A DNA stretch of 64,000 nucleotides from positions 47,743-111,742 of IMG/VR virus record IMGVR_UViG_3300043772_001024; one strand, written 5' to 3'. Under the pieces are notes generated by a model. The model did no database searches, was not told the DNA's origin, and worked only from the letters and a program-made list of their open reading frames with translations. Both the position numbers and the translations under genes were made by a program. Origin of the DNA: a virus. Within the stretch, counting starts at the first letter, position 1. Each line of letters begins with the position of its first letter. This document shows, piece by piece, positions 47,318 through 57,422 of the stretch.

Positions 47318-47794
47318 TTATGCAAGAATCAAAAAGTGAATTTTAACTACATTGTTTAGTGCTGCAGCTGAACCATTTGGATTTGATAATACAATTTTAA
47401 ATGAACCTGTTGCAATATCTGAAACACTTGCTACAGGAAACCCTGTTGCAGCCTCATCATATTGTACAGAAACTAAAATTCTTGATCCTGCAACAACATT
47501 AGTGTTGTTTACAGTAAAGAATGTTTTAGCATTTGCAGCTAATGTAGATGACACAGTAGTTACAACACCATTTAATGTGTTTGTAGTTACCGGTGTTGTA
47601 ATACTAGTACCCTGAGTTACAGTGCCTGTATTATATAATGTCTGCAATGGAGCAGCATTTACAGCTAATGGTAGCCACTTATCATCGCGAGATTGGTCTT
47701 GTGCACCTACTGCAATTAGAGTGTTAACATCTGTTGGGATTGTGGTTCTGTAATTACCAGCCTTGATCCAAGAAATAAGATTTAAGATATCCAT
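47318..47794 (-). CDS. Conserved fibre-region structural protein
   Basis: A 158-aa protein. The N-terminus DILNLISWIKAGNYRTTIPT, then DKWLPLAVNAAPLQ and repeated TTxVTxNTLNGVVTTVSSTL, end FKIVLSNPNGSA...IHFLILA. I recognise this as a recurrent virion protein type of Bacteroidota phages without known function. First gene of the fibre unit, after a GTATATT motif and a terminator. Confidence 0.65.
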   Translation of the reverse strand: MDILNLISWIKAGNYRTTIPTDVNTLIAVGAQDQSRDDKWLPLAVNAAPLQTLYNTGTVTQGTSITTPVTTNTLNGVVTTVSSTLAANAKTFFTVNNTNVVAGSRILVSVQYDEAATGFPVASVSDIATGSFKIVLSNPNGSAAALNNVVKIHFLILA

Positions 47795-55748: not shown

Positions 55749-56168
55749 ATGGAAAAAGAATTTGTACCTTATGAGTTAGCTTTAAAGATAAAGCAAATTG
55801 GATATAAAAAAGAAGGTGTTGATGAAGACTGCTTTGCTTTTTATGATGAAGAGGAATATCTATTTACTGTAAGAGAACAAGATGACATTAATGAAGAATG
55901 GTTAATTGCACCAACATTCTCACAAGCATTTAGATGGTTTAGAGAGAAACATGGTTTGTTTGTAGCTCCAGCTGCTGCTTCATATGAAAATGGCCTATAT
56001 TTATGGTTTTTTGAAATAAATTCAACAGTATTACCATTTGGAACTGGTTTGGGTACAACTGATGATTTTAAAACTTATGAAGAAGCAGAAACAGCTTGTC
56101 TCCAAAAGTTAATTGAAATTGTAGAACAAACACATGCTGAGATGATAGATCATGGCGTGTATAAATAA
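55749..56168 (+). CDS. Conserved Bacteroidota phage protein (FVPYELALKIK type)
   Basis: A 139-aa protein. KEFVPYELALKIKQIGYKKE, then APTFSQAFRWFREKHGLFVA and TYEEAETACLQKLIEIV. I recognise this FVPYE...PTFSQAFRWFREK...YEEAE-C-L-x-KLIEI pattern as a common hypothetical protein of Bacteroidota phages and prophages. Role unknown. Confidence 0.7.
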   Translation: MEKEFVPYELALKIKQIGYKKEGVDEDCFAFYDEEEYLFTVREQDDINEEWLIAPTFSQAFRWFREKHGLFVAPAAASYENGLYLWFFEINSTVLPFGTGLGTTDDFKTYEEAETACLQKLIEIVEQTHAEMIDHGVYK

Positions 56169-56175
56169 AACAAAA

Positions 56176-56718
56176 ATGGCAAGAGTAGCAAAAGCAATGA
56201 AAAAAGATCTAGTTGAAGCAAAAAAAGCTTGTGTAGGCAAAAAGATGGAAGGATTTAAGTTTGCTGATACTAAAAATACTAAGTATGCTAGTTGTATGAA
56301 TGAATACATTGGTAGACTGGGTAAAATTACAGAGTACAATGAGAAAACTGATGAGTTCAAAGTAGAGTTTAAAGATGACTACTGGTTTTATCCAGCTAAG
56401 TTAGGCTTGAAACATATTGTAGAAGAATCTGATGTGGTTATAGAAAATGTAACTGAAGAAGAAATTGATGATGCATATGTAAAAATGCTTAAGGAAGAGA
56501 TAGCAGATTTATCAGCTAGATTAGATGGTGCTTATAAAGAACAGGAAGAAATGCTTGAAGAGTTAAGCTCATGGCTAAAACCATTTCCTAGTGCTTTTAC
56601 AAAGCTTCAGGAACATGCTGGTGTAATTACTCCGGAAGATGTTACTTATCACACAAATCTTATTCTTAAGATTATGGAACATAAGTTTGGTTATAAACCT
56701 AAAATGGTAGAGCTTTAA
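56176..56718 (+). CDS. Hypothetical protein (180 aa) with small-barrel segment
   Basis: Start chosen at ATG 56176 (MARVAKAMKKDLVEAKKACV), preceded by an A-rich tract; an in-frame ATG at 56152 would overlap the previous gene by 17 nt. GRLGKITEYNEKTDEFKVEF resembles a small barrel (SH3/Tudor-like) and the second half is coiled coil (LSARLDGAYKEQEEMLEELS). Function unknown. Confidence 0.6.
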   Translation: MARVAKAMKKDLVEAKKACVGKKMEGFKFADTKNTKYASCMNEYIGRLGKITEYNEKTDEFKVEFKDDYWFYPAKLGLKHIVEESDVVIENVTEEEIDDAYVKMLKEEIADLSARLDGAYKEQEEMLEELSSWLKPFPSAFTKLQEHAGVITPEDVTYHTNLILKIMEHKFGYKPKMVEL

Positions 56719-56892
56719 AGAAATGTGTTGTCCCTTGAGAAAGGAATGTTAAGTAGTCTGCCAGATACCAACACAGAGGGCTTCTCATCCTCAAGACACA
56801 TAAACTTCAGTTCCCACACAGTGGTGAGATGGGCTAAGTTATATACAATTTCTCGGAGCTGGAAGTAGAAAGCTGAAGAGTGTGTCTTTTAT
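56719..56892 (+). ncRNA. Structured RNA leader upstream of tRNA
   Basis: A gene-less 174-nt stretch. GTGTTG (56725-56730) can pair with CAACAC (56769-56774) and CTTGAG (56734-56739) with CTCAAG (56790-56795), a pseudoknot order. A long helix GACACA-(4 nt)-CTTCAG / CTGAAG-(2 nt)-TGTGTC (56795-56810 / 56873-56886) follows and ends 6 nt before the tRNA. It may be a separate RNA or a processed leader. Confidence 0.5.
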
Positions 56893-57002
56893 AGTCCCAT
56901 AGCTCAGTTGGTAGAGCGGAACCTCTGAAAATGTAAAGGATAGCCTGTTAGGGCATGCAATACATCAGGTTCAGGTCACAGGTTTGAATCCTGTTGGGAT
57001 TA
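56893..57002 (+). tRNA. tRNA-Phe(GAA)-like with a 35-nt hairpin insertion at position 37/38
   Basis: Complete cloverleaf: acceptor AGTCCCA/TGGGATT (7 bp with one G-T), D-arm GCTC-AGTTGGTA-GAGC, anticodon stem AACCT/AGGTT (56920-56924/56967-56971), T-arm ACAGG-TTTGAAT-CCTGT. The anticodon loop CTGAAA is interrupted by 56931-56965, which forms its own ATGTA/TACAT stem with an inner GCC/GGC hairpin; after it a C completes a 7-nt loop. Anticodon GAA is inferred. There is one extra base before the anticodon stem and no encoded CCA. It may be functional with an extended arm, or a tRNA mimic. Confidence 0.7.
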
Positions 57003-57046
57003 CTAAAAAATGCTATTGTGGGAGTGACTTACTTCAACCCTCTGAC

Positions 57047-57068
57047 AGCCAGGAAAGACTGGCTTTTT
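57047..57068 (+). terminator. Terminator of tRNA/RNA unit
   Basis: Perfect 6-bp stem AGCCAG / CTGGCT, loop GAAAGA, then TTTTT. Confidence 0.8.
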
Positions 57069-57086: not shown

Positions 57087-57422
57087 ATGATTATGAACTG
57101 GTTAGGAAAAATGTTCAAGAAAAAGAAAAAGAGTTATAATACTGATGGTCAGTATAAACTATTAATTATTGATGATGAGGCAGAATTGCTCCATAAAAAT
57201 TTAGGTATGACTAATGAAAGAGCAGAAATAATATTAAATAAGTGCTTAGAATCATTTGAAAACAGTCAACGTGTGCATGTTGCAATGGAAAAGGTTGTTG
57301 ATATATGTACTCATACTAATGAGATAGTCTTTGCTACTCTTATGATGGCTAAAGTTATTGAGAAGAATGAGTCACATGAAAGGATTTCTAATATGCTCAA
57401 AAACATGTTTGGCCGTGGATAG
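57087..57422 (+). CDS. Helical protein with basic N-terminus (111 aa)
   Basis: MIMNWLGKMFKKKKKSYNTD has an amphipathic, Lys-rich N-terminal segment that could touch membrane or nucleic acid. The rest is helical (MTNERAEIILNKCLESFENS; IVFATLMMAKVIEKNESHER). First gene after the RNA unit, with an ATGATTATG doublet at the start. Function unknown. Confidence 0.6.
   Translation: MIMNWLGKMFKKKKKSYNTDGQYKLLIIDDEAELLHKNLGMTNERAEIILNKCLESFENSQRVHVAMEKVVDICTHTNEIVFATLMMAKVIEKNESHERISNMLKNMFGRG

Follow-up and report, generated by a model that had tools for sequence, protein, structure and literature searches.

Phage tRNAs are usually explained in one of two ways, as supplying codons or as replacing host tRNAs that have been cleaved. 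The locus analyzed here raises the question of what a phage tRNA-like gene does when its anticodon arm is interrupted by an insert. It lies in a stretch of 64,000 nt, positions 47743 to 111742 of a 111,742-base IMG/VR virus contig, which we call the window and which was analyzed over its whole length. The original prediction placed a tRNA-Phe-like gene at 56893-57002 and called for its fold to be checked with tRNAscan-SE and Infernal. An Rfam search of the whole window found a tRNA at exactly these positions (RF00005, 51.6 bits versus a gathering score of 29, E = 3.7e-8); it is the sole Rfam match in the window and the sole tRNA on the 111.7-kb contig. ARAGORN reported no tRNA gene at 56893-57002. 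The gene scores above the RF00005 threshold, but it lacks a 7-nt anticodon loop with U33 on a 5-bp stem.

The gene is 110 nt long, lies on the plus strand, and reads AGTCCCA-TA-GCTC-AGTTGGTA-GAGC-G-GAACC-T-CTGAAAA-[36 nt]-GGTTC-AGGTC-ACAGG-TTTGAAT-CCTGT-TGGGATT-A. All four arms that had been predicted are present. The 5' strand of the acceptor stem, AGTCCCA (56893-56899), pairs with TGGGATT (56995-57001), after which A73 ends the gene at 57002, with CCA not encoded. The D-arm (56902-56917) is closed by GCTC and GAGC and carries A14, G15, and GG; the anticodon stem pairs GAACC (56919-56923) with GGTTC (56968-56972); and the T-arm (56978-56994) pairs ACAGG with CCTGT around TTTGAAT. The D-arm, the T-arm, and the 3' end agree with the Rfam alignment, and the Levitt pair is G15-C48.

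Between GAACC and GGTTC the window gene has 44 nt. L007, an ordinary phage tRNA-Phe whose anticodon stem is identical, reads GAACC-CTGAAAA-GGTTC, and relative to it the window gene has an excess of 37 nt, made up of an extra U at 56924 and a 36-nt insert at 56932-56967, after position 38. The segment between these two additions, CUGAAAA (56925-56931), is identical to the normal Phe (GAA) anticodon loop of L007. Thus, the original prediction was right to put an insert in the anticodon arm, but its extent (35 nt at 56931-56965, between positions 37 and 38), accurate to within two bases, has to be corrected to the one given here, and the extra U has to be added. The complementary strings thought to fold the insert are there: an outer helix of ATGTA (56931-56935) and TACAT (56961-56965) and an inner hairpin, GCC-N6-GGC (56943-56954). 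Both are invariant among homologues, so that covariation neither proves nor refutes them. The insert had also been judged too short for a group I intron, which agrees with its length of 36 nt and with the lack of any Rfam intron match at E values up to 1.

Homologues were collected from IMG/VR contigs by scanning for the insert and by reaching loci through the two flanking genes. The same insertion, sought at homologous loci as the original prediction had proposed, was found in six distinct 110-nt variants including the window's own (family A), which align without gaps at a mean column identity of ~97%. In three acceptor pairs both partners differ between variants (CCA/TGG becoming ATG/CAT in L044, giving the acceptor AGTCATG), and these compensatory changes refute chance as the origin of the arms. 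While the acceptor varies by compensation, the insert is nearly invariant; its variation amounts to four hairpin-loop bases, the six bases between GCC and GGC being TGTTAG, TGTTAT, or TACCAT. CUGAAAA is the same in all six. The L044 copy adjoins a different gene, and L033 and L034 have the 110-nt gene in common but not the upstream flank, which indicates that it is the whole gene that moves or recombines. Judged by this pattern of conservation, the window gene is real and conserved. The insert pattern was absent from 85,000 bacterial and archaeal genomes, its own contig had neither a free copy of the insert nor antisense matches to it beyond chance, and no similar DNA around the window was found in the phage collection or in plasmids.

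The gene is flanked upstream by a 188-aa gene to which no function was assigned (56152-56718, plus strand; relatives in 8 contigs) and downstream by a 111-aa gene (57087-57422, plus strand; relatives in 48 loci), which served as the syntenic marker of the locus. A terminator-like hairpin on the same strand (57048-57068; GCCAG-GAAAGA-CTGGC and then TTTTT) precedes the marker, and its stem covaries among relatives, from GCCAG/CTGGC in the window to GCCGG/CCGGC in L024 and GCTTG/CAAGC in L042. The slot upstream of the 111-aa gene is filled in different ways. It holds an ordinary 74-nt tRNA-Arg(UCU) in L024, L025, L030-L032, and L038-L041, nothing in L018-L023, L026-L029, and others, and other inserted tRNA-like genes in L017 (4566-4682, 117 nt), L016 (8410-8567, 158 nt), and L042 (7753-7912, 160 nt). 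The last three all score above the tRNA cutoff, and their inserts differ from the window's and are longer.

Several other elements accompany these genes. A downstream element, AAATGCTATTGTGGGAGTGACTTACTTCAACCCTCTGACAG, together with the covarying hairpin (57003-57068 in the window; also L024 and L042), is common to loci with different tRNA genes. Directly upstream of the tRNA is an element GATGGGCTAAGTTATATACAATTYCTCGGAGCTGGRAGTAGAA...GTGTCTTTTAT (56829-56892 in the window; also L090 and L096), which is kept also where the tRNA is absent. An intergenic element, TTGCGTGCACCC...GACCGTA...AGACAGATAAAAGGTGTAATAGTCTGTCTT, which is probably a structured RNA, stands upstream of the 111-aa gene in L082-L085, L043, L042, and L096 and recurs at several intergenic sites. 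The L042 contig, from a related phage, also carries a Hatchet ribozyme at 2159-2326 (Rfam RF02678, 75.3 bits).

The large terminase and the major head protein of the window phage match PHROG families, and the terminase is 23-27% identical to those of Crassvirales and Flavobacterium phages; from these matches, it is likely that the window phage is a distant crAss-like phage of Bacteroidota. Family A comes wholly from metagenomes, as does nearly all of the broader class described below, and the hosts given are inferred ones.

This broader class consists of genes with an AGTCAGG-type acceptor, a Leu-like D-arm, an intact T-arm, and usually A73, in which the normal anticodon arm is missing. A first scan with the common 3' half, ACAGGTTCRAATCCTGTCCTGACTA, gave at least 120 stretches, among which the dominance of AGTCAGG was partly selected by the pattern itself. 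A second scan fixed only AGT and the Leu-like D-arm, leaving acceptor positions 4 to 7 and the whole 3' half free. Among the matches listed, 88 of the 101 with a recognizable 3' half nevertheless carry AGTCAGG, and the acceptors are paired, though nothing in the scan constrained them to be. With our own cloverleaf scanner, which gave 0 matches in 2.34 Mb of shuffled sequence, we found at least 236 distinct AGTCAGG...CCTGACTA genes without a normal anticodon arm at no fewer than 183 loci (L103-L343, e.g., L111, L131, L134, and L165). Among the matches listed, AGTCAGG-type genes without a normal arm outnumber those scored normal by 236 to 15, and for other acceptors the corresponding numbers are 48 and 251; the rule for a normal arm (4 of 5 pairs, U33, and a 7-nt loop) is simple and misfiles a few genes. 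Exact-pattern scans underestimate diversity and favor AGTCAGG. In ~85,000 bacterial and archaeal species (one genome each) the 3'-half pattern occurred only 8 times, all or nearly all on metagenome-assembled contigs, three of which were Chitinophagaceae or Sediminibacterium.

The class genes sit between ORFs, some of them among ordinary tRNAs with unrelated acceptors, and among the matches listed, 54 loci have two to five of them. Also among the matches listed, A73 is present in 217 of 231 genes, CCA is encoded in 3 of 236, and the Levitt pair is kept in 210 of 231, as A15-U48 in 199 and as G15-C48 in 11. This last count exceeds those of all 10,000 column shuffles, in which the relatedness of the sequences was not corrected for. 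The middle segment, in contrast to this core, ranges from 16 to 131 nt (median, 57) and falls into ~176 BLAST-connected families among the matches listed. One gene, L262, has an apparently normal Leu(UAA) arm on an AGTCAAG acceptor, which suggests that the AGTCAGG class descends from tRNA-Leu. Two other origins were considered and rejected. MITE-like terminal repeats would not explain the AGTCAGG ends, as the same payload occurs with AGTGCAG/CTGCACT ends and it is the pairing that is kept, not the sequence; integron attC sites are ruled out by the tRNA core and the 15-48 pair.

The window gene shares the architecture of the class, with intact acceptor, D-, and T-arms, a 15-48 pair, and an abnormal anticodon arm, and its locus is occupied by class members in relatives. 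It departs from the class in having the acceptor AGTCCCA or AGTCATG instead of AGTCAGG and in keeping the Phe loop sequence. Its insert has no clear sequence in common with the AGTCAGG payloads, and the link is one of locus and architecture.

The payload sequences point to at least partial structure. In the family formed by L154, L174, L221, and MW202828.1, six pairs in the acceptor, the D-stem, and a payload helix change on both sides, and 99.1% of the cells in the alignment pair, versus at most 39.8% when the partners are slid. The covariation in the acceptor and the payload helix of this family spans AGTCAGG and AGTGCAG versions. Between L112/L135 and L136 the helix GTTGAA/TTCAAC is exchanged for GAGCAA/TTGCTC. 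Over 122 payloads the gain in fold energy over shuffled sequence was modest (mean z of -0.76, versus -0.40 for stretches drawn at random from these loci).

A further comparison came from the crAss001-like phages. crAss001 has a 144-nt tRNA-like gene (96453-96596; L380 1154-1297, minus strand; 46.6 bits) directly downstream of a TROVE (Ro60-like) gene. A similarity search found this type of region also in PhiCrAssBcn records, cr112_1, and cr106_1, and crAss001-like tRNA-like genes of 142-144 nt are present at L389 2396-2537, L390 1783-1924, and L391 1757-1900. What looks like another cloverleaf-like copy (GGGGATG...CATCCCCA) comes next in L390 and L391. Beside the crAss001-like tRNA-like gene are free hairpins with the motif TTAGTGTA..A.AGA.TTACTTCAA ... 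CTGTT...TGTTC. The insert in crAss001, cr106_1, and cr112_1 is a circular permutation of these hairpins, in which the same two strands appear in reversed order and are joined by a small hairpin. On this comparison the crAss001-like insert is a module that exists also without the tRNA, beside the TROVE gene.

Cellular TROVE/Ro60 relatives bind tRNA-like Y RNAs, and the free hairpins and the tRNA-borne module are candidate phage Y RNAs. Rfam gave no Y-RNA family for the crAss001 region and none for the window element, which matched tRNA only. TROVE was matched at E ≤ 0.001 in 6 of the 42 records tested, crAss001 included, mostly not adjoining the tRNA-like gene, and these numbers do not support a TROVE link for the whole class; neither the window contig nor its near relatives gave a TROVE match. 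Transcriptomics places the crAss001 TROVE gene among the earliest expressed in infection (PMC8375218), and there is a general discussion of jumbo phages with TROVE proteins, the cellular versions of which act together with a tRNA-like partner (PMC7824862).

Among the readings offered in the original prediction, that of a tRNA with an extended arm fits these results best: inserts of many lengths and sequences occupy the same place among relatives, most of which have no anticodon, and the crAss001-type module is found outside tRNA as well. Because the parts that are read by processing enzymes or at the elbow are kept, and the part that decodes is replaced, often by something structured, these genes look like tRNA scaffolds. 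We propose, with about even confidence, that the window gene makes a tRNA-scaffolded RNA whose payload is kept, unspliced, in the mature molecule. The tRNA body (acceptor, D-arm, T-arm, and elbow) would let the host's RNase P, RNase Z, and CCA-adding enzyme excise, finish, and stabilize the RNA. The structured payload in the position of the anticodon arm would stay in the mature molecule as its active part, with a protein or a second RNA as the probable binding partner. In the window gene, the body would come from tRNA-Phe and the payload would be the 36-nt hairpin, and the gene would represent one branch of a phage practice of keeping the tRNA core and swapping the anticodon domain for an interchangeable RNA module. 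Several findings count against this reading: the Phe loop CUGAAAA, for which a pure scaffold would have no use, is kept unchanged in family A; the payload helices of this family carry no covariation signal (six sequences at ~97% identity); the payloads of the broad class fold only slightly better than shuffled sequence; and the window insert has no clear sequence in common with them. The case for a scaffold is weaker for the window gene than for the class because the conserved insert has no identified partner and the Phe loop is kept.

For the class we suggest, tentatively and at rather less than even confidence, that uncultured phages, many of them probably infecting Bacteroidota, have a large, undescribed set of tRNA-like genes with a conserved, possibly aminoacylatable core and exchangeable payloads that replace the anticodon arm and are used against hosts or their defenses, the window gene being one branch. 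Bacterial LeuRS does not need the anticodon, and for that reason it is possible that the Leu-like members, with their A73 and Leu-like D-arm, are charged.

The alternative that survives best, which we still think unlikely, is that the RNA is a decoy: a tRNA mimic, either sacrificial or resistant to cleavage, that would engage the host's anticodon nucleases or other defenses directed at tRNA. The kept tRNA core, with its anticodon loop hidden or removed, is what a decoy would look like, and the turnover of payloads would fit an arms race; in addition, the bacterial tRNA mimic YrlA has been proposed as a competitive inhibitor of an anticodon nuclease (PMC7790460). However, the analysis turned up no defense target, and most class members are without any anticodon-loop sequence.

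Rather improbable, in our view, is a mini-intron, which a host or phage endonuclease would excise and whose flanking halves would be ligated into a working tRNA-Phe(GAA). The insert does follow the anticodon closely on its 3' side, near the classical site, and the exact Phe loop, invariant in the six variants, is what such a tRNA would need; this much of the earlier suggestion holds. But six long contigs of the group had no RtcB, RNA_ligase, or tRNA_int_endo match (PF01139, PF09414, and PF01974); a search with PF09511 (T4-type ligase) was uninformative because its controls gave no match either. The bulge-helix-bulge is missing, the two helices being separated by an internal loop, CUGAA(A)/C, instead of two 3-nt bulges around 4 bp. 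With U56924 in place, any contiguous excision leaves an 8-nt loop or a 6-bp stem. In two of the six variants C31 faces A rather than G, and this C31-A39 mismatch breaks a pair of the anticodon stem. Finally, in the syntenic relatives and the broad class there is no anticodon that splicing could restore.

It is quite improbable that the tRNA core is mere processing punctuation, a site between genes for cutting by RNase P and RNase Z, with a middle that drifts. The conserved parts (acceptor, T-arm, and elbow) are those that the two enzymes read, the middles differ almost everywhere, and the genes lie between ORFs, all as such a site would require; yet the middle of family A is as conserved as the core despite changing flanks and acceptor, several payload families show compensatory changes, and the crAss001 insert is a conserved module. 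A decaying pseudogene or recombination debris, which the abnormal anticodon arm and the rejection by ARAGORN might suggest, is highly improbable given complete acceptor, D-, and T-arms with compensatory changes across contigs, retention of the gene at new genomic locations, and a class found at more than 180 loci.

The scaffold that we propose resembles several known RNAs and differs from each. With canonical phage tRNA-Phe(GAA) (RF00005) the window gene has in common the cloverleaf, the D and T loops, A73, and the unencoded CCA, but it has the 36-nt insert and the extra U in the anticodon arm and is missed by ARAGORN. Like Y RNAs and YrlA, which act with Rsr (Ro60, TROVE), these genes join a tRNA-like fold to what would be a protein-binding module, and in crAss001-like phages TROVE is a neighbor. 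Here, however, the molecule would start and end at a complete acceptor stem, there is no Rfam Y-RNA match, and the window contig has no TROVE match and the window insert no common motif. tmRNA also has tRNA-like ends, no usable anticodon, and a long insertion, whereas the window gene forms a 4-bp D-stem, matches no tmRNA model, has no evident tag frame, and has a far shorter insert. A permuted tmRNA was seen elsewhere, on the minus strand of L009 (12824-13007; RF04321, 76.2 bits), a phage contig with many tRNAs, one of them called Pyl(CTA). Archaeal, eukaryotic, and self-splicing tRNA introns likewise interrupt the anticodon loop, but here the bulge-helix-bulge is absent, the insert falls short of the length of a group I or II intron, the contigs yielded no splicing genes, and relatives have no anticodon. 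The closest parallel is the engineered tRNA scaffold, a tRNA body in which a foreign RNA replaces the anticodon arm; the phage version is natural, phage encoded, and known here from sequence.

A widespread class with a tRNA body but without a decoding arm cannot supply codons or replace cleaved tRNAs in the usual way. It points to the tRNA as a carrier of other RNAs, an architecture so far built deliberately by engineers, and suggests that in viruses the tRNA body serves to transport RNA modules and not to decode. In the open-access literature searched, we found no account of phage tRNAs whose anticodon arm is replaced. Cultured crAss001-like phages of Bacteroides intestinalis, which have a version beside an early-expressed Ro60-like gene, make the question open to direct testing. 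Annotation tools either overlook these genes or label them as undetermined, suppressor, or pseudo tRNAs. The cultured Tenacibaculum phage pT24 (L233) has two near-identical genes annotated as tRNA-Undet, at 533-611 and 900-978, each with a lengthened anticodon arm.
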